Origin: Cohaesibacter marisflavi
GTDB lineage: Bacteria; Pseudomonadota; Alphaproteobacteria; Rhizobiales; Cohaesibacteraceae
Direction of reading: 5' to 3'
DNA: 64,000 bases
Assembly (NCBI RefSeq): GCF_900115225.1
Contig: NZ_FOVR01000001.1
Coordinates: 186,001-250,000, forward strand
This document shows, piece by piece, positions 48,522 through 64,000 of the stretch. Positions within the stretch are counted from its first letter, which is position 1. The number at the start of each line of letters is the position of its first letter. A program made the position numbers and the translations under genes. The notes beneath the pieces are model-generated. The model did no database searches. It was given only the letters and a program-made list of their open reading frames with translations, and was not told the origin of the DNA.

Positions 48522-48937
48522 GTCTCTTGCCTGCTTGTCTCTCTGCTGTGCTTTTGGCTACGCGCGATTCGGAGGTTGGTCGGGTTAGTAAAAATGCCGG
48601 AACAGGCGAGAAATATCAGACTTCTATTCCTGACAGATAAAGCAGTTCTGTCATATCAGGTAAAATTCCAAGCTATTTATTACCTTGGTCAGAATTAATT
48701 GGTCCGCTCCCGAAGACCGACTTAACCCTTTTTGAAATAAAAGAAAAAGAAAAGGTGAAGGCAAGGTATCGCAACGAGCGAGACTGTCTTTTCAGGCTTT
48801 TTATATTATCAATTAGGATAATACTGAAACCACAATATTCATTCCACTGTGACAGCTTCCTGTCAGACAAGCAGACTACTATCCCCGCGATGGCCCGCCA
48901 AATAAAATAAGGCTGGCTTAATTGTGGAGGAGAAATC
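48522..48937. promoter_or_regulatory. tctC upstream region with TGACAG inverted repeats
   Basis: About 415 bases, AT-rich from 48700 to 48830. Two inverted repeats share the half-site TGACAG: TGACAGA-N9-TCTGTCA (48631-48653) and TGACAG-N4-CTGTCA (48850-48865). No coding sequence. GTGGAGGAG upstream of the ATG at 48938 is the Shine-Dalgarno. Confidence 0.5.
48850..48865. promoter_or_regulatory. TGACAG-N4-CTGTCA inverted repeat near tctC
   Basis: A perfect 6-bp inverted repeat with a 4-base centre, 72 bases before the tctC start. The same half-site pair occurs at wider spacing at 48631-48653. It is a candidate binding site for the regulator of citrate uptake, possibly the response regulator at 61237-61908. 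Confidence 0.45.
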
Positions 48938-49921
48938 ATGATTTCCAAAGTGGTCCGCGCAGCACTCGCTGTCGCAGCAATGTCTCTCGTACCTGCCGCA
49001 GCGCAAGCGTTCGAACCTGAAAATCCGGAATGTATCGCTCCTGCCAACCCTGGTGGTGGCTGGGACTTCACCTGCCGTCAGGTTGGCAAATCCTTGCAGG
49101 ATCTCGGCCTGATCGATTCCACCATGCAGGTGGTAAACCTTGCTGGCGGTGGCGGTGGCGTTGCCTATGCAGCCGTGGTCAACAAGCGTGGTGACGATAG
49201 CAACCTCATCGTGGCTGCCTCTTCGGCAACAGCAACCCGTCTGGCACAGGGTGCCTATCCGGGCAACACCATGGATCAGGTCCGCTGGGTTGGTGCTATT
49301 GGCGCAGACTATGGCGTGATTGCAGTGGCAGCCGATAGCCCGATCAAAGACCTAACCCAACTGATGACGCAGCTTAAAGACAAACCAAGCTCTATTGCTG
49401 TTGCTGGTGGGTCCGCTGTTGGTGGCTGGGACCATCTCAAGGTTCTGATCGCAGCCAACGCCGCAGGTATCAGTGATGTGCGCAAAGTCAAATATATCGC
49501 CTTCAATGGTGGTGGCGAAGCGGTAACCCAGTTGCTGGCTGGTTCTGTTCAGGCATTCTCCGGCGATATTTCCGAAGCAAAAGGCTTCGTGGATTCAGGT
49601 GATATCCGCGTGATTGCCGTTCTGTCTCCGGAACGCCTTGATGGCGACTATGCCGCATTCCCAACCGCGAAAGAGCAGGGCATTGACGCCATTGGTGCCA
49701 ACTGGCGCGGTTTCTATGCTCCAAAGGGCATGAGCGATGACGCTTATGACTTCTGGGTTTCCAAGATCGACGAACTTTATGATACCCCGCAGTGGAAGAC
49801 TGTCATGAAGAACAACGGTCTGGCTCCGCTTGATCTGCAGGGCGCAGAATTCGAGCAGTTCGTTGGTGAATCTGTTGCCAAGATCCAGCAGATTTCCCGC
49901 GATATCGGCATCATCAAATAA
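48938..49921 (+). CDS. tctC: Tripartite tricarboxylate transporter, substrate-binding protein
   Basis: A 327-residue periplasmic protein of the TctC/Bug family with signal peptide (SKVVRAALAVAAMSLVPAAAQA). It has the family features APANPGGGWDFTCR at the mature start, VVNLAGGGGGVAYA, and FNGGGEAVTQLLAGSVQA. Bug proteins bind carboxylates by two water-bridged loops; citrate is likely here because citCDEFGX follows. A strong hairpin separates it from tctB. Confidence 0.92.
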   Translation: MISKVVRAALAVAAMSLVPAAAQAFEPENPECIAPANPGGGWDFTCRQVGKSLQDLGLIDSTMQVVNLAGGGGGVAYAAVVNKRGDDSNLIVAASSATATRLAQGAYPGNTMDQVRWVGAIGADYGVIAVAADSPIKDLTQLMTQLKDKPSSIAVAGGSAVGGWDHLKVLIAANAAGISDVRKVKYIAFNGGGEAVTQLLAGSVQAFSGDISEAKGFVDSGDIRVIAVLSPERLDGDYAAFPTAKEQGIDAIGANWRGFYAPKGMSDDAYDFWVSKIDELYDTPQWKTVMKNNGLAPLDLQGAEFEQFVGESVAKIQQISRDIGIIK

Positions 49922-49937
49922 TAATAAGCTATCCCGG

Positions 49938-49965
49938 TTGCGGCGGCTGAGACCGGCCGCCGCAA
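49938..49965 (+). other. GC-rich hairpin after tctC
   Basis: Arms TTGCGGCGGC and GCCGCCGCAA pair over 10 bp with an 8-nt loop, starting 16 bases after the tctC stop. The right arm continues only into ATTTCC, not a real T-run. It probably stabilises tctC mRNA and allows limited read-through into tctBA. Confidence 0.65.
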
Positions 49966-49983
49966 TTTCCGTCTAACGAGGGA

Positions 49984-50421
49984 ATGATCATGAGTGATCG
50001 TATCTTCGGAGCTGTTGGGCTCCTGCTGGCCGCGCTCTTTGCCTATTCATCCATGATAATCGAGGAGAGCTTTCTCTCCGATGCGGTCGGCCCCAAGGCC
50101 TTCCCATTGATTATCGCCGCCATTCTGGCAATCTCGTCCCTGACAATCATTCTGAAACCGGACGCCGCGCCCAAATGGCCGACGCTTCCGCGGTTCGTCG
50201 AGCTTGTCGCCTCCATCGTCGTGATGGTGCTGTATGCCGAGTTTCTGCCAATTGTTGGTTTTGTGATCGCAACGGCTGTCGCGTCCACCTATCTCACCTG
50301 GCGTTTGGGGACATCCGCCATCCAGTCTGTGGTGGTCGGTATATCCATCTCCGTCGGCATCTATGTCATTTTTCACCTTCTCTTTGGCCTGTCGCTGGCC
50401 AAGGGCCCGCTTGGTTTCTAA
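49984..50421 (+). CDS. tctB: Tripartite tricarboxylate transporter, small membrane subunit
   Basis: A 145-residue protein with four predicted helices (about 6-26, 38-55, 78-105, 113-140), the size and layout of TctB. It forms the membrane part of the importer with TctA. Start could be ATG 49984 or 49990; GAGGGA precedes both. It ends 12 bases before tctA. Confidence 0.88.
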   Translation: MIMSDRIFGAVGLLLAALFAYSSMIIEESFLSDAVGPKAFPLIIAAILAISSLTIILKPDAAPKWPTLPRFVELVASIVVMVLYAEFLPIVGFVIATAVASTYLTWRLGTSAIQSVVVGISISVGIYVIFHLLFGLSLAKGPLGF

Positions 50422-50433
50422 GGAGATCGGATT

Positions 50434-51975
50434 ATGGAAACTTTTTCGTCTCTTGCAGACGGTTTTGTGATTGCGATGACCTTTCAGAACCTCATTCTGG
50501 CACTGCTGGGGTGTTTTCTGGGAACCATCATGGGCGCGCTGCCCGGTCTTGGCCCGTCAAACGGGGTCGCGATCCTCATTCCTCTGGCCTTCTCGCTGGG
50601 CCTTGGCGCTACGCCGTCTCTCATTCTGCTGACGTCCGTTTATTACGGCGCCATGTATGGCGGTCGTATTTCTTCCATCCTGCTCAACATCCCCGGTGAT
50701 GCGCCTGCCTTGATGACCTGCCTTGATGGCTACCCCATGGCGCGCAATGGCCGAGGCGGGGAGGCGCTGGCGCTTTCCGGTTTTGCGTCCTTCATCGGTT
50801 CGTTTCTGGCAACCTGGGGGCTAGTGCTACTGGCGCCGCAGTTGGTCAAGATTGCGCTCGCCTTCGGGCCTGCTGAATATTTCGCTCTGTTCGCGTTGGC
50901 CTTCGCCACGCTGGGTGGTGTTTCTTCCACCAATCAGGCGAAATCGGCTTTCGCAGCGATGGTCGGACTTGGTCTTGCCATGGTCGGGGTGGATACCCAG
51001 ACCGGTGTGCCACGCTTCACCTTTGGTCTCGTGCATTTCTATGATGGCATTGACTTCCTCGTTGCCATCGTCGGCCTGTTTGCGATCTCGGAAGTCTTCA
51101 TCTTCATCGAAAATCGCCACGGCGATGCAGATGCAGAAGGCAAAAAGGTCGAGCTCGGTCGTCTGACGCCAACCATGAAGACATTCTGGGGCAGTTTCCC
51201 TTCGATTATCCGCACCAGTATTGTCGGCTTCATTGCCGGTGTTCTGCCCGGTGCCGGAGCCTCTTTGGGGTCCTTCATTTCCTATTCCATGGAAAAGCGT
51301 CTGCTCGACAAGAATGGCACCTTCGGTAAGGGTGATCCGCGCGGTGTGGCTGCGCCTGAAGCGGGCAACAATGCCGCCGCCGGTGGTGCACTGGTGCCAA
51401 TGCTGGCACTCGGTGTTCCCGGCTCTGGCACGACCGCTGTTCTTCTGGCCGTTCTGCTGGCGCTCAACATCACGCCGGGGCCGTTGCTCTTTGCCAACAA
51501 TCCTGATGTGGTCTGGGGCCTGATTGCTGCGCTCTTCATCGGCAACTTCATCCTGCTGCTGCTCAACATTCCGTTCGTGGGTATCTTCATCCGCGTGCTG
51601 CTTGTGCCACCGCGCATCCTGATGCCGATCGTCGCAATGGTCAGCTTTGTCGGGATCTACGGCATTGCCGGGTCTAGCTTCGATCTTCTGATCATGGTGG
51701 CCTTCGGTGTTGTTGGTTGGCTGTTCCGCAAGCTTGATGTGCCGCTGGTTCCGGTCATTCTCGGGGTGCTGCTGGGCAACAATATGGAAAGCAACCTGCG
51801 CCGCGCCATTACCATTTCTGATGGTGACTGGACGGTTCTGTTCGCAAGCCCGCTCGCGATCACCCTGTGGTCGATCTCGATCATCGGCTTTGTGCTCCCC
51901 ATCTTCGTCAGCCGCTTCATGCCCAAGAAACCAAAACCGGTTTCTGCTGAAGCAGAAGAGGAAGTATCCAATTAA
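50434..51975 (+). CDS. tctA: Tripartite tricarboxylate transporter, large membrane subunit
   Basis: A 513-residue membrane protein with about 12 helices and family signatures GALPGLGPSNGVAILIPLAF (about residues 33-52) and the related repeat GFIAGVLPGAGASLGSF (about 263-279), plus PEAGNNAAAGGALVPMLALGVPGSGTTAVL. Uses an ion gradient, not ATP, to import the carboxylate delivered by TctC. The C-terminal tail is short and acidic (AEAEEEVSN). It is the last transport gene before the citrate lyase genes. Confidence 0.95.
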   Translation: METFSSLADGFVIAMTFQNLILALLGCFLGTIMGALPGLGPSNGVAILIPLAFSLGLGATPSLILLTSVYYGAMYGGRISSILLNIPGDAPALMTCLDGYPMARNGRGGEALALSGFASFIGSFLATWGLVLLAPQLVKIALAFGPAEYFALFALAFATLGGVSSTNQAKSAFAAMVGLGLAMVGVDTQTGVPRFTFGLVHFYDGIDFLVAIVGLFAISEVFIFIENRHGDADAEGKKVELGRLTPTMKTFWGSFPSIIRTSIVGFIAGVLPGAGASLGSFISYSMEKRLLDKNGTFGKGDPRGVAAPEAGNNAAAGGALVPMLALGVPGSGTTAVLLAVLLALNITPGPLLFANNPDVVWGLIAALFIGNFILLLLNIPFVGIFIRVLLVPPRILMPIVAMVSFVGIYGIAGSSFDLLIMVAFGVVGWLFRKLDVPLVPVILGVLLGNNMESNLRRAITISDGDWTVLFASPLAITLWSISIIGFVLPIFVSRFMPKKPKPVSAEAEEEVSN

Positions 51976-52434
51976 GACGCATCTCCCGGTCCGACATAAT
52001 AAACCAGTCCCCCAACGATAACGGATCGGGAGTTGCATCAGAAACAAGGGGAGTGCCAGCCTTGGGTGGCACTCTCTTAAAAGCCCTCAAAGGAAAGCAA
52101 TCCGATTTCTTCGACAAAATCACAGTTTTTTAGGCTAATTTGCTGCGATTATGACCTCGGTCAGAGACTTGACAGAAATATCGGATAAAAAGGGCGATTA
52201 ATATGATTGCGACTGTGGCTGCAAAAGCGGCGATCAGTAAAAAACCGGCAATCAATGAGGGTGGATGAAACCGCAATCAACAAGGAATGAGAATATCCAT
52301 TGTCACTGTCCGCAATCCTGCGACGATCTTTCTTTTAGCCCATTAATATCAGGGTGCCATGGTGCCACTGAGAGGCTTTTAGACGGTGTGACAATGTAAA
52401 TTCTGATTGCTCAAACGGCTAAAGGAATGTGCTA
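51976..52434. promoter_or_regulatory. Intergenic region tctA / citC
   Basis: About 460 bases. A hairpin GAGTGCCA/TGGCACTC (52051-52074, 8-nt loop, followed by TCTTAA) may be a weak terminator of tctCBA. A single TGACAG half-site occurs at 52170-52175. A minus-strand frame at 52130-52276 would encode a hydrophobic peptide but has no Shine-Dalgarno (discussed in findings). The citC promoter presumably lies in the last 200 bases. Confidence 0.45.
52051..52080 (+). terminator. Possible terminator of tctCBA
   Basis: An 8-bp perfect stem (GAGTGCCA/TGGCACTC) with an 8-nt loop, 75 bases after the tctA stop, followed by the short pyrimidine stretch TCTT. The weak T-run makes it uncertain. Confidence 0.45.
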
Positions 52435-53463
52435 GTGAGCGACGGATTGGAATTCTTGACGGTTGAACCGGCCTCTGACCCTGTGGCCCGAAGGGAAATC
52501 GTCGACCTGCTGGCCAGTTGCGGCCTTGATTACGAGAAGCAAATCGAGTTTTTCGTAACGGCGCGGCAGGAAGGGCGGCTCGTAGCCTGTGCAGGCTTCG
52601 AAAAGGGCATCATCAAGGATGTTGCCATTTGCCAGACTCTGCGAGGCAGCGCGATCAGTCTGCGGCTCGTCAGTGAGGTAACCTATCTCGCCCATAGCCA
52701 GGGATATCAAATTCTTTTCGTCTATACCGAGCCGCATAATGCGGATTTCTTTTTGGGCTGCGGCTTCTATCCGCTGGTCGAAGTGCCCGGACAGACGGCC
52801 CTGCTAGAGAATACGCCGGTCGGTATCAAGAATTATTGTGCCTCTCTGGCCCACTACAAGGTGGAGGCGGACAAGATTGGCTGCGTGGTGGCCAACGCCA
52901 ATCCCTTCACGCTCGGTCACCTCTATCTGATCACCGAAGCAGCGAAATCCTGTGATTGGCTCCATCTGTTCATCGTCAAGGAAGATGCCTCGCTCTTCTC
53001 CTATCATGATCGCTTCATGCTGGCCAAGGAGATGACCAAGGACATTCCCAATCTCACCTTGCATGGCGGTTCAAAATATATGGTCTCGCGGGCCACGTTC
53101 CCGGCCTATTTCTTCAAGGACAAGGGCATGGTCGGCCAATGCCGCACCGCGGTCGATCTGTTGCTTTTCCGCAAATATATTGCCCCGGCCCTTGGCGTGA
53201 CCCACCGCTTTGTCGGCACCGAGCCATTCTGCGATACCACGCGCAAATACAACAATGACATGAAATTCTGGCTCCAGGAGCCAAGCTCCATAGCCCATTC
53301 CATCGAGGTGGTTGAGCTGGAGCGCACCAAGCGCAGCGGCATCGCCGTTTCCGCTTCAGAAGTGCGCCGCCTGTTGGCGGGAGGAAACTTTGAAAAGATC
53401 AAGGAGTTCGTACCCAAACCGACCTTTGATCTGATCATGAATAAATATGCCACATCAGTTTGA
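52435..53463 (+). CDS. citC: [Citrate (pro-3S)-lyase] ligase
   Basis: A 342-residue enzyme that acetylates the thiol of the citrate lyase prosthetic group using acetate and ATP, switching the lyase on. An N-terminal GNAT-like domain (about 1-130) precedes a nucleotidyltransferase domain with the HxGH-type motif NANPFTLGHLYLI (about residues 149-161) and the C-terminal SASEVRRLL (ISxSxVR-like) motif. GTG at 52435 is 7 nt from AAAGGAA and is preferred to GTG 52429. First of the citCDEFGX genes. Confidence 0.93.
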   Translation: MSDGLEFLTVEPASDPVARREIVDLLASCGLDYEKQIEFFVTARQEGRLVACAGFEKGIIKDVAICQTLRGSAISLRLVSEVTYLAHSQGYQILFVYTEPHNADFFLGCGFYPLVEVPGQTALLENTPVGIKNYCASLAHYKVEADKIGCVVANANPFTLGHLYLITEAAKSCDWLHLFIVKEDASLFSYHDRFMLAKEMTKDIPNLTLHGGSKYMVSRATFPAYFFKDKGMVGQCRTAVDLLLFRKYIAPALGVTHRFVGTEPFCDTTRKYNNDMKFWLQEPSSIAHSIEVVELERTKRSGIAVSASEVRRLLAGGNFEKIKEFVPKPTFDLIMNKYATSV

Positions 53464-53524
53464 CAGCTGACGGCCTGTCGCCGCCATGCGTGCCATCGAT
53501 TTTAAAAATCTAAAGGAGCGAAAC

Positions 53525-53821
53525 ATGCAGATCATACAGGAGGCGTTGGCGGGGACACTCGAATCGAGCGATCTCTTTGTCAGGGTCTCACCGTCAGAAG
53601 GACCGCTTGAGTTGATCCTGAACAGCGAAGTTCAGCACCAGTTCGGCGACCAGATCCGAAAGGTCGCGCAAGAGACCTTTGCAAAGCTCGGCGTGTCCGA
53701 AGGGGCCACCGTTATCATCGAAGACAAGGGAGCGCTGGATTGCGTGATCGAAGCCCGCCTGGAAGCCGCTCTTCTGCGCGCCGCGGGTGACAAATCGGTA
53801 GAGTGGGAGACCCTGTCATGA
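53525..53821 (+). CDS. citD: Citrate lyase acyl carrier protein (gamma subunit)
   Basis: A 98-residue protein, the standard CitD length. Ser14 in [13 protein letters not shown] is the site that carries the 2'-(5''-triphosphoribosyl)-3'-dephospho-CoA group in characterised CitD proteins. AGGAGCG lies upstream of the ATG at 53525; the open frame from 53486 adds 13 unlikely residues. Overlaps citE by 4 bases. Confidence 0.95.
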
Positions 53822-54690
53822 CTTTGCGTCGTTCCATGTTGTTCATCCCCGGTTCCAATGCCGCGATGATCTCGACCGCCTTCGTCTTCAAGCCGGACTC
53901 GGTCATGTTCGACCTTGAAGATGCTGTATCCCTGCGCGAAAAGGATGCTGCCCGTCTGCTGGTCTATCACACCCTTAAATCATCGCTTTATGATGGCATT
54001 GAGCGTGTTGTCCGTATCAACCCTCTGTCGACACCTTATGGCAAGGATGATCTCGAGGCCGCCGTGCGCGGCGGCGCCGACGTCATCCGCCTGCCCAAGA
54101 CAGAAACGGCCGATGATGTGAAGGAACTGGAAACCTGCGTTGAGGAGCTTGAGCGCAAATGCGGCCGCGAAGTTGGCTCGACATTGCTCATGGCTGCCAT
54201 TGAATCCGCATCCGGTGTGATCAATTCGGTTGCCATTGCCACCGCTTCAAAACGCCTGATGGGCATTGCTGTTGCTGGCTTTGACTATGTGGTCGACATG
54301 CAGACCGAACGCGGCGATGGCTCTGAGCTATTCTATGCCCGCTGCGCCGTGTTGCACGCTGCCCGTGCCGCCAAGATCGATGCCTTCGATGTGGTCTATT
54401 CCGACATCAACAATGAGGAAGGCTTTCTCAAGGAAGTCGACGTCATCAAACGGCTTGGCTTCAACGGCAAATCATTGATCAATCCGCGTCAGATCGAACT
54501 CTTGCACAATGCCTACGCCCCAACGCAGGAAGATGTCGATTATGCCAACCGTGTCGTTGCCGCGGCCGAAAAGGCAGAGACCGAAGGGCTGGGGGTCATC
54601 GCGCTCAATGGCAAGATGATCGATGCGCCCATCGTGGATAGCGCCAAACGGGTTCTGAGCCGCGCTCAGGCTTCCGGCGTGAGACGATAG
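53818..54690 (+). CDS. citE: Citrate lyase beta subunit (citryl-ACP lyase)
   Basis: A 290-residue TIM-barrel of the HpcH/HpaI superfamily that splits citryl-ACP into acetyl-ACP and oxaloacetate. Motifs: [11 protein letters not shown] at the N-terminus, [19 protein letters not shown], and [11 protein letters not shown] near residue 225. Mg-binding acidic residues lie in FDLEDAV and the GFDYVVDM region. ATGA overlap with citD ensures coupled expression; 12 bases separate it from citF. Confidence 0.95.
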
Positions 54691-54702
54691 GGAGGGCTGA
54701 CA

Positions 54703-56223
54703 ATGGACAAGAACAATCATTCGGCTCCGGGGAGGAGCAAGACGGTGGCAGAACCAGAACTGTTTCAGGGCTTTGCAGCAAAAATTCCTTATCTGGCCGA
54801 TCCAGTCGCCAAGCTTGATCGCAAGCTGGTCGATACGGTGCAGGAAGCCGTACGCCGTGTGGGCCTCAAGGACGGAATGACCATTTCCTTCCACCATGCC
54901 TATCGCGAGGGCGACAAGGTCATCAATATGGTGGTGCAGATCCTTGCCGATATGGGCTTCAAGGATCTGACGCTGGCTTCTTCCTCGCTGGTCTCTGCCA
55001 ACGCGCCGCTCATTGAGCATATCAAGAATGGCGTGATCCGGAAGATCTACACCTCCGGCATGCGTGGCAAGTTGGCCGATGCCATCTCCCACGGGCTGAT
55101 GGACGAACCGATTACCGTGCATTCTCACGGGGGGCGTTGCGCTCTCATCGAAACCGGTGAAATCAACATCGACGTCGCCTTTATCGGCGTTTCGGCATGC
55201 GACGCCTATGGCAACGCCAACGGCTTTTCAGGGCGTTCGCGCTGTGGGTCTCTGGGCTATGCCATGGTCGATGCCTATTTCGCCAAGAATGTCATCATGC
55301 TGACCGAGGAAATCGTCGCCTATCCGAATGCTCCGGCCAGCATTCGTCAGGATCAGGTGGACTGGATCGTGCAGGTGGATGAGGTTGGTGATCCGGCCAA
55401 AATCTCTGTTGGGGCAGCCCGTGCCACGACCAACCCGCGCGAGCTGCTGATTGCGCGCCTGTCGGCGGAAGTCATGGAGCATGGGGGCTATTTCAAGGAT
55501 GGCTTTTCCATGCAGACCGGTACTGGCGGCTCGTCTACGGCAACGGTGCGCTTCCTGGAAGATCGCATGCGCCATCTGGACATCAAGGCCCAATGGGCGC
55601 TTGGCGGACAGACCGGTGGTATGGTCGATTTGCACAATAAGGGCCTGATCGGCACATTGCTCGACACCCAGAGCTTTGATGCGGTGGCCGCGCGTTCGCT
55701 GGAATCCTCGCCCAACCATGTCGAAATCTCGGCTCACTATTACGCAAGCCCCATGTCGAAAGGGGCTGTGGTGGATCGGCTGGATATGGTGATCCTGTCG
55801 GCACTGGAAATCGATCTTGATTTCAACGTCAATGTGTTGACCGGTTCTGATGGTGTCATGCGAGGCGCCTCTGGCGGCCATTGCGATACCGCAGCAGGGG
55901 CCAAATTGTCCATCGTGGCCGCGCCGCTTATCCGCTCGCGCATCCCGACCGTGGTCAAGAATGTCACCACGCGGGTTACGCCGGGCGAGACGGTCGGTGT
56001 ACTGGTCACAGACCACGGCATCGCCGTCAACCCGAACCGATCAGACGTGGAAGAGCGGCTGCGCGCTGCCAATCTGCCGGTTCGCACCATGGAAGAACTC
56101 TATCAGCGGGCGATCTCCATTACGGGTGAACCCAAGCCGATCGAGTTCCTCGACAAGGTGGTCGGCGTTGTCCGCTATCGTGATGGCACAGTGATCGACA
56201 CCGTGCGTCAGGTTGCCAAATGA
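54703..56223 (+). CDS. citF: Citrate lyase alpha subunit (citrate:acetyl-ACP transferase)
   Basis: A 506-residue subunit that exchanges acetate for citrate on the acyl carrier protein, giving citryl-ACP. It has the type II CoA-transferase fold; conserved stretches include FHHAYREGD, ITVHSHGGRC, MQTGTGGSSTATVRFLE and GVMRGASGGHCDTAAGAKL. Length matches K. pneumoniae CitF (508). GGGAGGG precedes the ATG. It overlaps citG by 4 bases. Confidence 0.96.
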   Translation: MDKNNHSAPGRSKTVAEPELFQGFAAKIPYLADPVAKLDRKLVDTVQEAVRRVGLKDGMTISFHHAYREGDKVINMVVQILADMGFKDLTLASSSLVSANAPLIEHIKNGVIRKIYTSGMRGKLADAISHGLMDEPITVHSHGGRCALIETGEINIDVAFIGVSACDAYGNANGFSGRSRCGSLGYAMVDAYFAKNVIMLTEEIVAYPNAPASIRQDQVDWIVQVDEVGDPAKISVGAARATTNPRELLIARLSAEVMEHGGYFKDGFSMQTGTGGSSTATVRFLEDRMRHLDIKAQWALGGQTGGMVDLHNKGLIGTLLDTQSFDAVAARSLESSPNHVEISAHYYASPMSKGAVVDRLDMVILSALEIDLDFNVNVLTGSDGVMRGASGGHCDTAAGAKLSIVAAPLIRSRIPTVVKNVTTRVTPGETVGVLVTDHGIAVNPNRSDVEERLRAANLPVRTMEELYQRAISITGEPKPIEFLDKVVGVVRYRDGTVIDTVRQVAK

Positions 56224-57251
56224 CAAGTGGGTCCTTCATGGATGAGGAGATAGGCGAGGGCGATCTTAAGGAAGTGATTAGTGATCCTTCTTTGGAGATC
56301 GCCACTGCGCCAACCTATGGGCTATTGAAACAGGAACAACTGGGGATATCAATTTCTCCTGTTGCCCCTGTGTGGTCGTCCCTGCCGGAGCGCCTTGCCG
56401 ACCTTGTCCATGAAGCCCTCGTTGCCGAAGCAACCCTCACGCCAAAGCCGGGGCTTGTGGATGCCCGCAACAACGGCTCGCACAAGGATATGACGCTGGC
56501 GACCTTTCTTGCCAGTGCCGACGCGTTGCGCCCTCTGATGGCGTCATTCGTCAAGGCAGGTGTGGAAACAGCGAGCGATCCTACTTCTGTTGCACTGCAG
56601 GCTCTGCGTGGACACGGTCTTATCTGCGAAGAGGCAATGAATGAGGCCACCGGCGGCATCAATACCCACAAGGGCGGCATCTTCGCCTTTGGCCTGTTGC
56701 TCGGCGCAGCGGGACGTTGCATCGGACGCGGGGAAGGGCTCTCGGTCTTGGCGCTTTGCGGCGAAGCCGCGCAGATGGTCAAGGGGCTGGTGAAGCGTGA
56801 GCTCGCCAACCGCGTAAAGACTGCCAATACTGCTGGGGAATATATCTATCGTCGCTATGGCCTCACCGGCGCTCGGGGCGAAGCGGAAAGCGGCTTTGAA
56901 TTGGTGCGGCTCTATGCTCTTCCAGCCTTTCTTTGCTCAAGAGAGGCAGGGCAGGACGAGGAAACCGCCTTGCTCGCCGCGCTGCTCGAATTACTCATCC
57001 GGAACAGGGATACCAATCTGGTTGCCCGTGGCGGCATGGAAGGTCTGTTTTTCGTGCGCCGTGAAGCGCAACGGCTCAAGCGCCTTGGCGGTGTCTTTGC
57101 CCCGGATTTCCATGCAAGACTGATGGCCATGGATGAAGCGCTGATCCACCGGAATTTGAGCCCCGGCGGGAGCGCTGACCTGCTAGGCGTTACCCTGTTT
57201 CTCGCGCGCATCGATGCGATGGGGTTGTCGGCAAGCACGGAGGTTTCATGA
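56220..57251 (+). CDS. citG: Triphosphoribosyl-dephospho-CoA synthase
   Basis: A 343-residue enzyme that joins dephospho-CoA to ATP to make the precursor of the citrate lyase prosthetic group. Family motifs: EATLTPKPGLVDARNNGSHKDM (about residues 70-91), GGINTHKGGIFAFGLLLGA (about 143-161) and DTNLVARGG (about 262-270). The first 50 residues are poorly conserved and may be a loose N-terminus. Overlaps citF and citX by 4 bases each, so all three are translationally coupled. Confidence 0.94.
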   Translation: MTSGSFMDEEIGEGDLKEVISDPSLEIATAPTYGLLKQEQLGISISPVAPVWSSLPERLADLVHEALVAEATLTPKPGLVDARNNGSHKDMTLATFLASADALRPLMASFVKAGVETASDPTSVALQALRGHGLICEEAMNEATGGINTHKGGIFAFGLLLGAAGRCIGRGEGLSVLALCGEAAQMVKGLVKRELANRVKTANTAGEYIYRRYGLTGARGEAESGFELVRLYALPAFLCSREAGQDEETALLAALLELLIRNRDTNLVARGGMEGLFFVRREAQRLKRLGGVFAPDFHARLMAMDEALIHRNLSPGGSADLLGVTLFLARIDAMGLSASTEVS

Positions 57252-57787
57252 AAGAACCCTGTTGGACCGATGGCCCGGAGGTCGCCCTCAAGGATATGCT
57301 GCTGGCCCGCGAACGGCGGGTGCGTCGGCGCGAAGATGGCCTGGCCCATTATCGCATGCCGACAATCACCTTTTCTGTCGTCATGCCCGGGCCGGTAAAA
57401 TTATGCCCCATGAGCGAATTACTCGCCAAGGAGGCAGAGCGGGCCGTGCATGAAAAGCTCTCGGCTAAGGGCTGGGAGAATCACATGCTCTGGTCTCAGA
57501 ACGCTTCCACTGGCCCGGAGGCGTTATTCGCTGTTGCCAGTGAGGCTGAAAAGCTCAAAAAGGCGATGGTCGAGCTGGAAGAAAGGCACCCGCTGGGGCG
57601 ACTATGGGATCTTGATGTCCATGGCGCAGACGGGCGAGCGGTTTCCCGTCGTGATATCGGCATGGCGCCGCGACGGTGTCTCATTTGCGATCAGCCAGCG
57701 CACGCCTGCGCCCGCTCGCGGACCCATGAAATAGGTGACATTATAAGGGCCATGGAAGAAAGAATGCGAAGCTATTTGGAAAAATAA
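57248..57787 (+). CDS. citX: Apo-citrate lyase phosphoribosyl-dephospho-CoA transferase
   Basis: A 179-residue protein that attaches the prosthetic group made by CitG to Ser14 of CitD. The start region has the family AREARRRRREDG-like stretch (LLARERRVRRREDG), and near the C-terminus the motif RRCLICDQPAHACARSRTH is characteristic. CitG and CitX are separate here, not fused. Last gene of the citrate lyase operon; a hairpin at 57892-57909 may end the message. Confidence 0.93.
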   Translation: MKEPCWTDGPEVALKDMLLARERRVRRREDGLAHYRMPTITFSVVMPGPVKLCPMSELLAKEAERAVHEKLSAKGWENHMLWSQNASTGPEALFAVASEAEKLKKAMVELEERHPLGRLWDLDVHGADGRAVSRRDIGMAPRRCLICDQPAHACARSRTHEIGDIIRAMEERMRSYLEK

Positions 57788-57891
57788 AGTCAACTTTGCC
57801 AAAAGTTGTCATGCATTTTGGACGAGAGCATGCGATAGATAGCAAATACTTTTCTGAAACACAGCGTATTCTCAAAAGAAAAATAAAAGAA

Positions 57892-57914
57892 ACAATGCGT
57901 TAGCATTGTGTTTC
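57892..57914 (+). terminator. Possible terminator after citX
   Basis: ACAATGC and GCATTGT pair around a GTTA loop and are followed by GTTTC. It lies about 105 bases after the citX stop. The stem is short and the T-run poor, so this is a tentative call. The rest of 57788-58047 shows no gene. Confidence 0.4.
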
Positions 57915-58047
57915 ATCCTGTCAGAGAGGTTCGTTGCGCTGGACTCTCAATGAGAATGGCCATCTCTCAAGCGGGAGTTGAAGATTAAACGCGTTGGTAC
58001 TAGATTATCGACGCATACTTTCAAACATTTTTTCATGGAGTCGCCTT

Positions 58048-58641
58048 TTGATTAGACAATTGACAGATCCTGAGGTTCTGGAGGCACTCGCAACACATGC
58101 AGAACAGTTTGATTTTGTGCTTGTTCCCGGCTTTAAAAATAGTGGACCTGAACATTGGCAGAGCTTTTGGGAGCGGGAAATCGATCTCTTCAGCCGCATT
58201 GATCAGAGCCGCTGGGATCAGCGCGATATTGTGCTATGGATTGATGCCGTGGGAAGGCTCCTGACCAAGCGCAATCGTCCCGCTATTCTCATCGGCCATT
58301 CGCTGGGGGCTCTTGCTTCTGCCTGCGTCATAGCCCGAGGTGAGTTGAATGTGGTTGGCGGTATGTTCGTCGCTCCAGCCGAGCCCATGCGCTTTGCCGT
58401 GGAAGAACGCATTCCGCACGAGAATCTGGGTATTCCAACGGTGGTGGTCGCCAGCCATAACGACAAGCTCATCTCCTTTGCACGCGCCAAGGGGCTGGCT
58501 GATGGCTGGGCATCCGACTTTATCGATGTCGGGGAAGCCGGACATATCAACTCCGAGGCTGGCTTCGGTCGCTGGCCTTATGGCTTGACCATTCTTCGCG
58601 ATCTCGCTGACCGCATTGTCGCCGACAAGAGCAAGGGGTGA
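58048..58641 (+). CDS. RBBP9/YdeN-type serine hydrolase
   Basis: A 197-residue alpha/beta hydrolase of the small RBBP9/DUF452-like group. The nucleophile elbow is IGHSLGAL (about residues 84-91); the expected Asp is in ASHNDKLIS (about 151) and His in EAGHINSEAGFG (about 174). PGFKNSGPEHWQSFWE near the N-terminus is the family's oxyanion-region motif. TTG at 58048 has GGAG 7 nt upstream; TTG at 57994 would add 18 residues. Substrate unknown. It lies between the citrate operon and the convergent SBP-kinase operon, belonging clearly to neither. Confidence 0.75.
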   Translation: MIRQLTDPEVLEALATHAEQFDFVLVPGFKNSGPEHWQSFWEREIDLFSRIDQSRWDQRDIVLWIDAVGRLLTKRNRPAILIGHSLGALASACVIARGELNVVGGMFVAPAEPMRFAVEERIPHENLGIPTVVVASHNDKLISFARAKGLADGWASDFIDVGEAGHINSEAGFGRWPYGLTILRDLADRIVADKSKG

Positions 58642-58651
58642 TCACGCCCGA

Positions 58652-59758
58652 TCACTGCTCTTCCGGCTTTTTGAAAATACTGTTCCAGACATCCAGAAAA
58701 TATCTGCGTTTTAGCGGGTCTTGATAGGTCAGCAAGCCGATGCCCATCTTGATTGGCAAATAGGCGTTGGTGGAATCCGCTGGCAATTTCAACCGCCGCA
58801 TGTCTGGCGAAATGGGTATCAAGGCCGAGTCTCGAGCCATTTTCTCTTGCCCGGTTTCAGATAGCAGAAACTCCAGAAAGCGCTCTGCTTCTCTCTTTTT
58901 CCTCGAATGTTTGTAGATGAAGGCCGTGCGCGACATGACAATGGTGTAATCCTTGAATTGGAAAATGCCGACATTCGGATCCTTGGAGGCGCGTTCCAGC
59001 GCATAGGTGCCGATGACGTTATAGCCAAGGATCAGATCGCCGGAGGCAACCGCATCCAGAATGGCCGATGTGTAGTCATAGGTTCGCATCTTTGCGCGGC
59101 TGAGTGCTTCGATCACACGGAAAATCTTGTCGCTTTGAATGGCATCTTGCGTGAAGAACAAGTAGCCCGCTCCCGACGAGGCCGCATCATAGGTGCCCAC
59201 TTTCTCTTCGAAGGTGGGCAGATTATTGATCAATAGATCCGCCAGATCGGAATGGGTTTTGGGCAGCGGATAACCCCGGAAGGCCTCCTTGTTATAGACC
59301 AACACAATCGGCTCATAGGTGAAGCCGTAAAGCTCGTTGCGCCATTCGGCCCAGCTTGGTGTAGCGCCTGCACGATCGGTGCTGAAGGGAGAGGCCAGTC
59401 CTTCATTGACCAGCTTTACCTGCAAGTCCATGGCTGAGCTAATGACCAGATCGATGGCGGTGTCCTTGCGGTCCCTTGCATAGAGCACATGCTCGAACAG
59501 GGCGTTGGTGGTGATTTCGTGATAGGCAATCTCGATATCCGGATTGGCCGTTTCAAAAGCCCTGATGACGCTTTCAAAGGCGGCGGTGTCCGTGGTGCTC
59601 CAGATATCGATCTCGGTTTTTTCTTGCGAGAAGGCAGCTGGTATGGCTGCCAGCATCGCTGTCAACAACACAGTGATCGCGAAAAGCATGTATTTGGCTG
59701 AGCGAGCCGAACAGGCTGAAAGAGGTGAAATAAGGGGGAAGAGGCTCTGTGCGCTCAT
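58652..59758 (-). CDS. Periplasmic binding protein linked to a two-component system
   Basis: A 368-residue extracellular solute-binding protein with an N-terminal membrane/signal segment (KYMLFAITVLLTAMLAAIPAAFSQ). The mature start TEIDIWSTTDTAAFESVIRAFETANPDIEIAYHE resembles the ferric/organophosphate-binding (FbpA/AfuA) branch rather than TctC. No permease or ATPase gene accompanies it. Its ATG overlaps the kinase stop by 4 bases, so it is made together with the sensor. Likely role: bind a periplasmic signal and present it to the kinase. The ligand is unknown; citrate, an iron complex or a phosphorylated compound are all possible. Confidence 0.82.
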   Translation of the reverse strand: MSAQSLFPLISPLSACSARSAKYMLFAITVLLTAMLAAIPAAFSQEKTEIDIWSTTDTAAFESVIRAFETANPDIEIAYHEITTNALFEHVLYARDRKDTAIDLVISSAMDLQVKLVNEGLASPFSTDRAGATPSWAEWRNELYGFTYEPIVLVYNKEAFRGYPLPKTHSDLADLLINNLPTFEEKVGTYDAASSGAGYLFFTQDAIQSDKIFRVIEALSRAKMRTYDYTSAILDAVASGDLILGYNVIGTYALERASKDPNVGIFQFKDYTIVMSRTAFIYKHSRKKREAERFLEFLLSETGQEKMARDSALIPISPDMRRLKLPADSTNAYLPIKMGIGLLTYQDPLKRRYFLDVWNSIFKKPEEQ

Positions 59759-61206
59759 GTGGGTATCCCCACTGTTTTACGGGTGAATATCATTCTCACG
59801 CTTAAGCCTCCCAAAGCCGAGTGGCCGAGCCTGAGCTGTGCCTTGTGGCTGCGCATGACCTCGTCAACGATGCTGAGGCCCAAACCTGACCCGTCGTTGC
59901 CTGTTCCCGTGGTGTAGAAACGTTCCAGCACCTTTGCGCGTCGCTCCTCCGGAATGCCCGGACCGGCGTCATCCACTTGCAGGATAAGCTGCTTTCTCTC
60001 TCTGCCGCGCAGTTTCAGGGTATGTTCAAAAAGAGAGATATCGATGCGGTTATTGGCTGGGCCATGTTTGATGGCATTGTCGATAACATTGCTGATGGCC
60101 TCGCGGATAGAGATGCTGTCGCCTGCAATCAGATCGGCAGTCTTGCCGCCATTCTCGATATCGGGCGCAATATTGACCGAAAAATCGATATCGGACTTCA
60201 CATGCTCACGCAGCAGCGTCTGCAAAACGGTTTTAAGCAAATCTGCCAGATGAATATCCGAGACAATCTTCTGGTCGGCCCGGTGAATGACCATGGCGTG
60301 GGCCAACAGCTGGTTGGTCAGGTGAATGGTCTGCCGGTTCTGCCGCTCCGCTTTTTCAATCCGGCCTTTCAAAAGCTCGGGCGACTGCTCCTTGCTGGCC
60401 AGCTCCAACTGGCCCTGAAGCGCCGAAAGGGCCGTTCTGATCTGGTGTGTCACATCGGCGATGAAGATTTGCGAGTGATCAAGATTATTCTTCAGCCGCG
60501 AGATGAAGCCGTTGATCGAGAGCACAAGGCTGGCCACTTCGCGCGGCGGTGTGACGGGCAGGGGCGTGAAATCGGAAATGTCACGCTGTCGCAAATTCTG
60601 CTCTACATCGATCAGGGGATGAAGGGCGCTATTGATCGCGATCCAGACAAACAGCAACCCTACCACGGTGATGAAAAGCGCCACTGCAAACCCGCGCCAG
60701 AACAGCTCTGCTATCATGTCATGACGCGCAATGCAGGTTTGGCCGAATTGCACGATAACCCAAAGTGAGCGGTTATCACCCGTGAGAAAGCGCGCCTGCT
60801 GCATGAAACGGACGGACTCGCCACTGAAAGCGTCATCCCAATAGACCGGGCTTTCGCTGGGCTTGTAGTTGGCTTTGGGGCGCAGATTGTGAGAGGCCGT
60901 GATGGTCTCGTCATCTTGCGTGAAAATGCGATAGAAAACGCGGTCTTCCTTTGCCAGTCCCAGAATCTCAAAGGCAGAATAGGGGATGTCGACCCGCACC
61001 TCACCCGAAGCCAGATTGGCCCGTTCCAGAATGGCAAGGGCCGCCCCATGCAACAGCCGATCATAGGATTCATTGGCAGCCTGCTGCGCATAGCCCCACA
61101 AGCCGATGCAGATCACCGTCAGAATGGCCAGAAAGCCTGCCCCCATGCTCAGTATGAGCCGGTGGCGCATGGATTTCTGTGTGAGGCGTTTGGAAGCGTG
61201 TTTCAT
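59755..61206 (-). CDS. TctE/QseC-type sensor histidine kinase
   Basis: A 483-residue membrane kinase. TM1 about 17-39, a periplasmic 2CSK_N-type sensor domain (about 45-165, YDRLLHGAALAILERA), TM2 about 172-192, HAMP-like segment, then HisKA with His254 in FIADVTHQIRTALSAL and a HATPase domain (N box REAISNVIDNAIKH, G1 VDDAGPGIP, G2 GSGLGLSIV). The H box has Gln after His, as often seen in TctE relatives, and Ala where RTPL usually has Pro. Encoded between the response regulator (30 bases upstream) and the binding protein. Confidence 0.92.
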   Translation of the reverse strand: MKHASKRLTQKSMRHRLILSMGAGFLAILTVICIGLWGYAQQAANESYDRLLHGAALAILERANLASGEVRVDIPYSAFEILGLAKEDRVFYRIFTQDDETITASHNLRPKANYKPSESPVYWDDAFSGESVRFMQQARFLTGDNRSLWVIVQFGQTCIARHDMIAELFWRGFAVALFITVVGLLFVWIAINSALHPLIDVEQNLRQRDISDFTPLPVTPPREVASLVLSINGFISRLKNNLDHSQIFIADVTHQIRTALSALQGQLELASKEQSPELLKGRIEKAERQNRQTIHLTNQLLAHAMVIHRADQKIVSDIHLADLLKTVLQTLLREHVKSDIDFSVNIAPDIENGGKTADLIAGDSISIREAISNVIDNAIKHGPANNRIDISLFEHTLKLRGRERKQLILQVDDAGPGIPEERRAKVLERFYTTGTGNDGSGLGLSIVDEVMRSHKAQLRLGHSALGGLSVRMIFTRKTVGIPT

Positions 61207-61236
61207 CGGTGCCCATGATCTCGCGCGAAGGGTGGA

Positions 61237-61908
61237 TCAAGTCTCATCCATATGCCCGATATAGCCAAGCCCTCGAATAGTCTTGATGAGGAAAGGGGAG
61301 CCATCCAGTTTCTTGCGCAGGCGCGTGATGGTCTGTTCAATCGCGTTGAAGCTGGGTGTTTCATCAAAATTGTAGATCTTGTCAGCGATTTCTTCCTTGG
61401 TCAAAACCCGATCGAGGCTGGTAAGGAACAGTTCGAGCAATTGTACTTCCTTGTTACGAAGCTCGATATCCTTGCCCGCGACATTGGCAAGCTTTGTGCC
61501 CCAGTCGAAGGTGAAATTGCCAGCGGTGAACAGGTTGCGCGCGAGACCGGATTTGCGCCGTGCCAGCGCCCGGCAGCGGGCAATCAACTCGCGAAAATCA
61601 AACGGCTTGGTCATATAGTCGTCTGCGCCAGCATCCAGCCCTACGACCCGGTCATCAATCTCCGAACGGGCAGAAAGCACCAGCACCGGCGTATCGAGAT
61701 TGCGCGCCCGAATGGCTCTGAGCAACTCGAACCCGTTCCTGCCGGGCAGGTTGATATCCAGCAGAATGAGATCAAACTGCTTCTGGCGCAAAATATAGTC
61801 CGCTTCATCCCCGTCACTTTCATGATCGATGACATGTCCTTCCTTGCGGAAGCGTTCAACGACGGTTTCGGCTAACGCCATGTTATCTTCAACAAATAAA
61901 ACACGCAT
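61237..61908 (-). CDS. TctD/OmpR-family response regulator
   Basis: A 223-residue regulator: receiver domain (1-115) with acidic pocket Glu7/Asp8, phospho-acceptor Asp51 in LLDINLPG and Lys in DDYMTKPFDF, then an OmpR winged helix (about 125-220, NKEVQLLELFL ... NAIEQTITRLRKKLDG ... IRGLGYI). First gene of the regulator-kinase-binding protein operon. The nearby tctCBA and cit genes are the obvious candidate targets, since TctD controls citrate uptake in Salmonella; the link here is inferred. Confidence 0.93.
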   Translation of the reverse strand: MRVLFVEDNMALAETVVERFRKEGHVIDHESDGDEADYILRQKQFDLILLDINLPGRNGFELLRAIRARNLDTPVLVLSARSEIDDRVVGLDAGADDYMTKPFDFRELIARCRALARRKSGLARNLFTAGNFTFDWGTKLANVAGKDIELRNKEVQLLELFLTSLDRVLTKEEIADKIYNFDETPSFNAIEQTITRLRKKLDGSPFLIKTIRGLGYIGHMDET

Positions 61909-62246
61909 GAAATCAGCTAGTTCAAACCCCTCCCAATCCGGACAGTGTGAATCCCCTCGTGTCTGCCCAGAATAGGTCGAGATTAGGTTTCTCGTTGGTC
62001 AGGGTCAATATGGCTAGTCTTAAAGACAGCATTGCAAACCAGAGCAATTCAGCAAGACAAGCCGATTAGCCCCGTGAAACAGGCCTCAGTCGAAATGATA
62101 GCCCTTGGTATTTCTTGCAAGGAAAACTAATGAGCATCACACTTTATGTCGCGATTTAAACCAAAGCTTGCAAAATAAAGCGAAATTTAACGCAGAGCGC
62201 ATAGGCTTGGGACTGGTTTTTCTTTGTCCAAATATGTTTTGCCAGT
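61909..62246. promoter_or_regulatory. Divergent region, response regulator / Amt-PAS gene
   Basis: About 340 bases holding the promoters of the two-component operon (minus) and the ammonium transporter fusion (plus). It is AT-rich near 62120-62240. I found no perfect palindrome, no convincing sigma-54 site and no small gene. Confidence 0.4.
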
Positions 62247-64000
62247 ATGCGTATATCATCCGTGTTCTATCTCTTGTTGTTTTCTACAGTCTGTTTGACC
62301 GGTGAGGCTCATGCATCGGAGTTATCCAGTCTGAAGGCAAATATTGACCTCACATGGGTCATGGCGGCCTCGGCGCTTGTCATGTTCATGCAGGCGGGCT
62401 TTCTTATGCTGGAAGCGGGGATGGTGCGCTCGAAAAACTCCATCAATGTCGCCCAGAAGAATTTGCTTGATTTTGTCTTCTCGGTGGCTGCCTTCACCAT
62501 TCTGGGCTTCATGCTGGCCTTTGGAAAGTCCTATGGCATCTTTGGGCTGGATTGGCGCTATCTTGGGCTTCAGGATCTCACCTCTCAGGAGGCTGGCTTC
62601 TTTGTTTTTCAGGTGATGTTCTGTGGAACGGCGGCGACGATTGTGTCCGGCGCCATCGCCGAGCGTATCAGATTGTCATCCTATGTGGTCGCCTCTGTCT
62701 TTCTCTCGGCCATCATCTTTCCTGTTTTCGCCCATTGGGCCTGGGGCAATGCCCTGATGCCCAATGAGGGCGCATTCCTTGCCAATATGGGCTTTATCGA
62801 TTTTGCCGGTTCATCGGTGGTGCATGGCACTGGCGGCTGGGTGGCTCTGGCAGGCTGCATTCTGCTTGGTGCGCGTGAGGGCCGTTTTGATCGGCAAGGC
62901 AATCCGATCCGGCTCGCAGGACATAGTCCTGTTCTTGCGACTACCGGGGGGCTTTTGCTCTTTATCGGTTGGCTGGGATTCAATGGCGGATCAACGCTCA
63001 AGGCCGACGAGAGTGTCGCTTTCATTATACTAAACACTGTGCTCGCTGGCGGGTTCGGCACTGTGACCGGTTTCATGTTCGGCTATCATCAAGATGGCCA
63101 CTATCTGCCGGAAAAGTCCCTTGCCGGCCTTATCGGTGGACTGGTCGCTGTCACGGCTGGCTGCGCAGTCTTGACGCCATTGGGTGCGATTGTCATTGGA
63201 GCCATTGGTGGTCTCGTGGCTGTCATTGCAAACAGCGTTCTGGAACATAAATGGAAAATCGACGACGCCGTCGGAGCTATCGGAGCACATGGCTTTGCGG
63301 GTGTTGTGGGAACCATCGGGCTGGCTCTATTGGCGCCTGCAGAGCATTTCGAAAATGGCCGCCAATATCAGATCATGATTCAGTCGCTCGGTGCAGGGCT
63401 CAATTTTCTTGTCAGTTTCGGCCTCGGCTTTATCTGCTTCTGGTTCCTGAAGCGCTTTCTGCGTCTGCGGGCAAGCCGCGAGGAAGAGTTGATCGGCCTC
63501 AATATCGCCGAGCATGCCACCCGTATTGGTGTGGGACATGTCGAAGATGCCATGGAGAAGCTGCTCTCCGGTCAGCGAAGCTTTTCACAGAGATTGCCTG
63601 CCGTTGCCGGAGATGAAGCAGAAAACCTCACCGGTTTGTTCAACAAACTCATGAGTAATCTTGAAGCCGAGCATAAAAAGCTGAGCGAGCTGGAGATCCT
63701 CAAGACCCAGTCCGAAGAAGCTGAACGCATATCTGCTCTTTCCAACGCCACCTTTGAAGGGATCGCCATTCACCAGAATGGCATGGTGATCGACGGCAAT
63801 CCTCAAATTGCCGAGCTGCTGGACTACAGTCTTGAGGAAGTGATCGGCAAATCGATCATGCAGTTCGCTGATGAACGTCATCGCGGCCGGATCGAGCGCT
63901 CTATCGCCGAGAATTGCAGCGAGCCATATGAAGCAGTGCTCGTATCTAAATCTGGCGAGCGGATACCAGTCGCCATTCGCGGGCGTATGATCAACTACAA
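62247..64000 (+). CDS. Ammonium transporter fused to a PAS signalling region (partial)
   Basis: A 584-codon open frame from ATG 62247, cut by the window end. A signal-like N-terminus (RISSVFYLLLFSTVCLTGEAHA) precedes a full Amt domain (about 30-420). Amt landmarks are intact: Phe gate residues in FQVMFCG, IDFAGSSVVHG with the conserved Asp and first pore His, WLGFNGGS with the second Phe gate and Ser, and GAHGFAG with the second pore His. After the cytoplasmic EEELIGLNIAEH tail come a helical linker (about 430-490) and a PAS domain (about 495-584). The output domain (kinase, GGDEF or other) lies beyond the edge. No good Shine-Dalgarno was seen. Confidence 0.88.
   Translation, partial: MRISSVFYLLLFSTVCLTGEAHASELSSLKANIDLTWVMAASALVMFMQAGFLMLEAGMVRSKNSINVAQKNLLDFVFSVAAFTILGFMLAFGKSYGIFGLDWRYLGLQDLTSQEAGFFVFQVMFCGTAATIVSGAIAERIRLSSYVVASVFLSAIIFPVFAHWAWGNALMPNEGAFLANMGFIDFAGSSVVHGTGGWVALAGCILLGAREGRFDRQGNPIRLAGHSPVLATTGGLLLFIGWLGFNGGSTLKADESVAFIILNTVLAGGFGTVTGFMFGYHQDGHYLPEKSLAGLIGGLVAVTAGCAVLTPLGAIVIGAIGGLVAVIANSVLEHKWKIDDAVGAIGAHGFAGVVGTIGLALLAPAEHFENGRQYQIMIQSLGAGLNFLVSFGLGFICFWFLKRFLRLRASREEELIGLNIAEHATRIGVGHVEDAMEKLLSGQRSFSQRLPAVAGDEAENLTGLFNKLMSNLEAEHKKLSELEILKTQSEEAERISALSNATFEGIAIHQNGMVIDGNPQIAELLDYSLEEVIGKSIMQFADERHRGRIERSIAENCSEPYEAVLVSKSGERIPVAIRGRMINY

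Follow-up and report, generated by a model that had tools for sequence, protein, structure and literature searches.

What does a periplasmic solute-binding protein (SBP) do in an operon that encodes a two-component system and no permease or ATPase? The question is raised by a 64,000-nt stretch of Cohaesibacter marisflavi (contig NZ_FOVR01000001.1, positions 186,001 to 250,000; hereafter the window), in which the genes of a TctD-like response regulator, a TctE-like sensor histidine kinase and an SBP form one operon, the trio. Judged from sequence, the trio is probably a three-component citrate sensor with a dedicated SBP, whose output would be the transporter operon tctCBA and perhaps the citrate lyase genes. 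A preliminary description of the window had proposed a three-component sensor. This proposal gains support from the recurrence of the operon, from single reading frames that join kinase and SBP, from co-divergence of the SBP with kinase and regulator, and from an operator-like repeat that lies outside the SBP gene. The operon consists of the following features:

61908–61237, minus strand: TctD-like OmpR-family response regulator, 223 aa, with Response_reg and Trans_reg_C domains
61206–59755, minus strand: TctE-like sensor histidine kinase, 483 aa, with 2CSK_N (28–168), HisKA and HATPase_c domains and hydrophobic segments at 17–35 and 173–191
59758–59755, minus strand: ATGA, overlap of kinase stop and SBP start
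59758–58652, minus strand: MctA/FbpA-type periplasmic SBP, proposed ligand sensor (third component), 368 aa, with an N-terminal hydrophobic segment at 25–43

The coordinates and the ATGA itself confirm the operon as described before, with a 4-base overlap of kinase and SBP and with no permease or ATPase gene; regulator and kinase are spaced by 30 nt. An OmpR-family regulator together with a kinase that carries a 2CSK_N sensor domain identifies the pair as TctDE, and this kinase is the sole PF08521 match of its genome at a cut-off of E 0.001. A TctE kinase is expected to sense the acid directly or via the transporter's own SBP.

The Pfam scan of the SBP returned SBP_bac_8, SBP_bac_1, SBP_bac_11 and SBP_bac_6 and no TctC (PF03401) match. 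The protein is of the MctA kind, in agreement with its earlier placement in the FbpA/AfuA-like branch and outside the TctC family. The nearest solved structures by phmmer are 3c9h from Agrobacterium (E 3.9e-63) and then the MctA series 7f6e–7f6u (E 1e-37 to 1e-36), with E 1.3e-37 for 7f6e. Among SBPs with a stated ligand, MctA of Thermus thermophilus is nearest (29.6% identity over 87%). PDB entries, of which we used the titles only and not as fold evidence, call it a metal-citrate-binding protein, bound to Mg2+-citrate or citrate. The titles name the variants D28A, S79A, S164A, T199A, Y221F and Y221A, and 7f6n differs from wild-type MctA at the serine two residues before D28, i.e. S26. We infer that these residues were mutated because they touch the ligand. 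Their equivalents (S26, D28, S79, S164, T199, Y221) in the window SBP are T55, D57, S108, S195, T230 and Y252; five are identical and S26 is conservatively replaced by threonine. A search of open-licence literature yielded no paper on MctA or 3c9h. The window SBP shares 80% identity with its counterpart in Cohaesibacter haloalkalitolerans, and the records annotate trio SBPs as ABC transporter or extracellular solute-binding protein.

The MctA gene of Thermus adjoins ATP-binding cassette (ABC) permease and ATPase genes. In contrast, the operon in the window carries neither and the genome has no close permease, and we therefore treat the window protein as an MctA homologue and not as the SBP of an ABC importer. 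That it belongs to an importer encoded elsewhere in the genome is scarcely plausible. Relatives in Klebsiella, Thermus, Agrobacterium pusense and Paracoccus do adjoin permease and ATPase genes, but the best MctA-type permease match of this genome reaches 30% (136 bits) and lies beside an SBP of its own, so that the orphan status claimed before survives the search for a partner. The other two SBPs retrieved with the window protein as query are 24–25% identical, no permease/ATPase pair for this SBP was found in the assembly (completeness 98.47%), and ABC-linked SBPs lie outside the trio group on the tree described below. As a side observation, a Klebsiella pneumoniae plasmid (L081, 8959–10054) has type I-E CRISPR-Cas genes close to an MctA-like SBP gene that occupies two frames and is followed by permease and ATPase genes.

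Recurrence of the trio and single reading frames

We searched for the SBP in 385 alphaproteobacterial genomes (class sample, 26 positive) and in 398 Pseudomonadota genomes (phylum sample, 60 positive), scoring at most five candidates per genome, so that additional copies may have escaped. Of 18 Cohaesibacter genomes, this one included, 17 have a relative at E 1e-20, and two small families are positive in 2 of 14 and 8 of 17 genomes. A scan of viral contigs for further SBP relatives found none. Thirty of the 31 class-sample places could be classified (G147:C103 was left out). Fifteen SBP genes lie directly downstream of a TctE-type kinase, two of them in one frame with it; nine are divergent from a tctD-type regulator, six beside tripartite tricarboxylate transporter (TTT) genes and three heading an ABC operon; five are ABC-linked with neither kinase nor divergent tctD-type regulator, and one is placed otherwise. 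The phylum sample adds 59 of its 65 places, six being already in the window or class set: 37 behind a kinase (none fused), and 17 and 5 in the next two classes. The divergent class tolerates a regulator up to 5 kb away, with L063, L196 and L197 as loose cases; plasmid loci were hand-picked and are excluded from these frequencies.

The survey of the trio suggested in the preliminary description thus returns a recurrent operon. It recurs from the side of the kinase as well: 22 of the 29 strong 2CSK_N kinases in the class sample (E ≤1e-20, a cut-off of our own choosing; neighbours were read for strong kinases only) have the SBP within 6 kb, and in these loci the third gene looks like a sensor. 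The remaining seven are L248–L254; at E 0.001, 67 of the 385 genomes have a PF08521 match. Genomes possessing both TctE and SBP number 23 against 1.8 expected in the class sample and 57 against 14.9 in the phylum sample, expectations that ignore kinship. In the phylum sample, where TctE was counted at genome level only, 57 of the 60 SBP genomes possess TctE and 57 of the 99 TctE genomes possess the SBP. A 4-nt overlap of kinase and SBP is possible by start codon choice in 44 of 66 unfused trio loci. Given this overlap option and the recurrence of the gene order across many Pseudomonadota genomes, we regard the arrangement as more than chance.

In 13 cases kinase and SBP form one open frame of 799–1146 aa. 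The hosts are Sulfitobacter, Palleronia, Salipiger, Peteryoungia, three Azospirillum species and six further genomes; for the two longest frames (L244, L245) the start codons taken lie upstream of the kinase match. With the Sulfitobacter protein as tblastn query, Palleronia and Salipiger match at 61.0% and 56.7% identity, with 100% of the frame in one piece. A third hydrophobic stretch between HATPase_c and SBP passes the cut-off in 10 of the 13 and is missed in L245, L247 and L286; at a looser cut-off L284 and L285 show such stretches within the kinase core as well. By eye, the joint stretches have signal-peptide-like ends and some carry a methionine near the joint, so a separate SBP may also be made in the single-frame forms. 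On a 126-row tree that includes the plasmid cases (and leaves out L243, cut by a contig end, and the long branches L084 and L076), the fused state needs four changes, at least two of them forced by strongly supported branches, gain and loss counting alike.

On balance we favor the view that several lineages of Alphaproteobacteria make the sensor as one polypeptide, in which a complete histidine kinase continues from its cytoplasmic catalytic end via a third, signal-peptide-like hydrophobic segment into a periplasmic citrate-binding protein. This protein would be either tethered permanently at the kinase C-terminus or cut by signal peptidase, giving a 1:1 ratio of kinase to sensor. The three separate genes in the window would then encode an unfused version of that sensor, and alphaproteobacterial TctE kinases would as a rule have a dedicated MctA-type sensor. 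The single frames are the most unusual part of the system, and no paper on kinase–SBP fusions of this kind was found among the matches listed in open-licence literature. The forms in Azospirillum and the marine relatives would offer a way to study communication between SBP and kinase at fixed stoichiometry.

Signalling part or transport part

On an SBP tree of 123 rows, all 75 trio-type proteins fall into one group of 76 (SH-aLRT 90), the odd row being cut by a contig end. The divergent TTT type stands next to this group. The tree is midpoint-rooted for drawing only and leaves out the duplicates L079 (of the window) and L171 (of L009) as well as L081, whose SBP gene spans two frames. Distances were compared over 43 representatives of the 62 trio loci with TTT. 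Those of the SBP correlate with the kinase sensor domain at 0.65, with the kinase core at 0.77 and with the regulator at 0.74. For TctC and TctA the values are 0.34 and 0.36, while these two correlate with each other at 0.93. With the other genes controlled, the partial correlation of SBP and kinase sensor is 0.148 (9 of 500 permutations as high), that of SBP and TctC 0.007 (229 of 500) and that of SBP and TctA 0.003. By synteny, co-divergence, overlaps and single frames alike, the SBP gene is tied to the kinase, as a dedicated SBP of a three-component sensor would be.

These values bear on the possibility that the SBP is a second transport SBP feeding TctBA, which we hold to be very unlikely. 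As this possibility would have it, TTT genes lie near the SBP gene in 21 loci where it diverges from the regulator, and it often immediately precedes tctC. Against it stand the near-zero partials with TctA and TctC (trio loci only), the single frame of SBP and kinase in several lineages, and the candidate operator described below, which separates SBP from tctC. In addition, the trio of L187 lies beside a CitMHS transporter gene with no TTT found, and CitMHS transporters are not known to use an SBP.

A different objection concerns TctC itself, which is also present and could be the sensor. In Bordetella pertussis, BctC, the transporter's own SBP, signals to the kinase BctE (PMC5812351, PMC9602780; here and below, published systems are described from excerpts of the papers cited). 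By analogy TctC would be the true signalling SBP, and the MctA-type SBP would only tune the kinase in affinity, in range or by restraint when empty. The gene tctC is found in the window and beside many trios, and TctE kinases without the SBP exist (L248–L254). However, the partial correlation of TctC with the kinase sensor domain is 0.062 (88 of 500 permutations as high), and the single frames join the kinase to the MctA-type SBP and not to TctC. We consider a signalling TctC quite unlikely. At another locus (L064, 8138–15269) the trio stands back to back with an ABC operon that includes an SBP from that family too; the two SBPs may divide sensing and transport between them.

Candidate operator and target genes

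The probable target of the proposed three-component sensor lies in the same cluster, convergent with the trio. The features in question are:

48850–48865, plus strand: putative TctD operator TGACAGCTTCCTGTCA (TGWCAG-N5-TGWCA), ending 72 nt upstream of the tctC start codon
48877–48882, plus strand: possible −10 element TACTAT, 11 nt past the operator, judged by eye
48938–49921, plus strand: tctC, transporter binding protein (PF03401), part of the probable target operon
49984–51975, plus strand: tctB and tctA, TTT membrane parts (PF07331, PF01970)
52429–57787, plus strand: citrate lyase genes citC, citD, citE, citF, citG and citX, a possible further target
61980–62008, minus strand: promoter-like elements of the tctD operon, TTGACC, 17 nt, TAATCT, from alignment and sequence, judged by eye

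With tctCBA (48938–51975) ending at 51975 and the trio edge at 58652, tctDE and tctCBA are linked. The phrase "without a transporter" in the preliminary description holds for the operon itself and misleads for the locus, because tctCBA, the probable target, sits within the window. The citrate lyase genes begin about 450 nt downstream of tctA and might share its transcript. In other trio loci tctC is often directly divergent from tctD (13 of 15 in the class sample, 26 of 37 in the phylum sample). This holds for only 1 of 11 further Cohaesibacter loci and not for the window.

A conserved element before tctC was first seen in an alignment of 11 Cohaesibacter loci and reads TGWCAG-N5-TGWCA over all loci. 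A reading as inverted repeat was dropped because the variation across loci fits a direct repeat. A direct repeat of 11-bp period upstream of the target is the form of an OmpR/PhoB-type operator, and TctD is predicted to bind it. The relaxed form TGWCA-N6-TGWCA has a single match in the whole window, at the operator position (0.17 expected), and is absent from the tctD promoter side (61980–62008). The strict form TGACA-N6-TGTCA precedes tctC in 17 of 53 regions from unfused, TTT-containing trio loci (nine of the 17 from Cohaesibacter), with a mean best mismatch of 1.19 over the 53 regions compared with 3.30 in shuffles. The relaxed box precedes tctC in 40 of 62 trio-locus regions (0.08 expected by shuffling) and in 13 of 20 divergent TTT loci (0.05 expected). 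Before the regulator it is found in 24 of 62 trio loci, largely in intergenic space shared with tctC, and in 5 of 12 trios without TTT; L187, L190, L191 and L195 have it there. None occurs before kinase, SBP or TctA genes of trio loci (0/62, 0/53 and 0/64), nor in TctE loci without SBP (0/7 regulator and 0/4 TctA regions). Among the 20 loci in which SBP and then tctC are divergent from tctD, 13 have the box in the interval from SBP to tctC, and none has it upstream of the SBP.

Across the 11 aligned loci TTGACC is invariant and TAATCT variable; an automated promoter scan of 57700–62700 listed nothing for the trio, this pair included. Since the box in the window stands before tctC only and the tctD side carries TTGACC/TAATCT, expression of the sensor genes appears constitutive and that of the transporter regulated. 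The same is reported for bctDE and bctCBA (PMC5812351). In Pseudomonas aeruginosa a TctD motif is described before tctD and before opdH-tctCBA, and PhoB is said to recognize two (T)GTCAT boxes spaced by 5 nt (PMC4513871).

Separately, the 40 nt before citC (about 52390–52429, ending GTG) look strongly conserved in the window, L009 and L172 and not in L174, for no obvious reason. An Rfam scan of 40000–64000 gave zero matches.

Ligand, mechanism and related systems

The signal is likely citrate or another tricarboxylate, perhaps as a metal complex, as the gene neighborhoods suggest. Of 12 Cohaesibacter trio loci (window included), 11 have citrate lyase and TTT genes next to the trio; in A. thermophilum the trio precedes malic enzyme and citC/citD genes, and in L187 it is divergent from Porin_O_P and CitMHS transporter genes. 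For eleven further phylum-sample trios no TTT was found nearby, and neighbors were identified for few. Together with the homology to MctA, the neighboring citrate genes back the earlier guess of citrate or metal-citrate as signal. The same architecture might sense tricarballylate, isocitrate, aconitate or, in some members, a different acid. ABC-linked SBP relatives adjoin tcuAB or aconitase genes and the S26 and T199 positions vary, but the window and most of its Cohaesibacter counterparts combine citrate lyase with TTT genes, and we judge another ligand unlikely. At one further locus (L084, 6895–10002, Ensifer sp. PDNC004) the genes keep the trio order, the SBP is a distant one, and the trio is divergent from PhnD-type SBP and ABC transporter genes, so the trio architecture may serve other ligands.

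In the proposed mechanism, the MctA-type SBP would bind citrate or a metal-citrate complex in the periplasm, and the loaded SBP would dock on the kinase's 2CSK_N domain. The TctE-like kinase would set the phosphorylation state of the TctD-like regulator, which would act at the direct repeat 48850–48865 to switch on tctCBA and possibly the citrate lyase genes that follow. TctD might activate or instead cease to repress, because TctD-TctE of P. aeruginosa is reported to work by derepression of opdH (PMC6403454).

Several observations weigh against this reading, beginning with that precedent of derepression. An SBP encoded near a kinase need not contact it, as PA4985 and AruS showed no interaction (PMC11113362). 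TctE without the SBP is common, 42 of the 99 TctE genomes of the phylum sample having no such SBP. D28, S79, S164, T199 and Y221 are all identical in 36 of 75 trio rows only, with T199 changed to S in 26 rows and S79 to P in 8. An AlphaFold model of the SBP from two-sequence input was poor (mean pLDDT 47.7, pTM 0.40). The partial correlation of the SBP is larger with the kinase core (0.304, 0 of 500 permutations) than with the sensor domain, and therefore speaks for membership in the signalling module rather than for contact with the sensor domain. As for the operator, 22 of the 62 tctC regions lack an exact box, and the W positions were picked after inspection of the data. The box also resembles the PhoB box, and the genome has 20 TGWCAGN5TGWCA matches (two places counted on both strands) compared with 1 for the reversed pattern; these could be PhoB-type sites or further TctD targets.

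Sensors of this kind are already known. CuaDSR of Ruminiclostridium cellulolyticum consists of protein families that differ from those of the trio, as do the regulator and kinase of HptRSA from Staphylococcus aureus. The comparison with HptRSA drawn in the preliminary description is sound as one of logic only. In HptRSA, binding protein, kinase and regulator are encoded in one predicted operon and the output is a transporter gene, with sugar phosphate as ligand (PMC6291074). CuaDSR likewise has a second, dedicated SBP beside the two-component system, distinct from the transport SBP, in another host and for cellobiose (PMC10384115). In BctDE-BctC, a TctD/TctE-type pair stands over tctCBA-type genes and the SBP reports citrate to the kinase; unlike the trio, with its separate MctA-type SBP in the kinase operon, it uses the transporter's own TctC-family protein (PMC5812351, PMC9602780). 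TctD-TctE of P. aeruginosa resembles the trio as a TctDE system; it responds to tricarboxylates, has a TctD motif ahead of both tctD and opdH-tctCBA (PMC4513871, PMC6403454), and differs by its reported derepression of opdH (PMC6403454). The variant described here combines TctDE with a dedicated MctA-type SBP, which several lineages encode in the same frame as the kinase; it was not found among the matches listed in open-licence literature. If the reading is true, it would give many orphan SBPs a testable function and provide a candidate operator for target prediction. In Xanthomonas, TctDE is said to control the citrate transporter gene citH (known to us by title), to be compared with the trio and CitMHS genes of L187.

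Three smaller observations concern the surroundings of these loci. On pSymB of the laboratory strain S. meliloti 1021 (L080) the divergent form is found, with tctDE on one side and SBP, box, tctC and tctA on the other. A gene annotated as AbrB family (PF05145 in L178) lies near L044, L047, L048, L083, L178 and L285. In the window, a frame divergent from the trio (62256–64000, plus strand) runs off the window end and appears by eye to encode an ammonium transporter-like part followed by a signalling domain.

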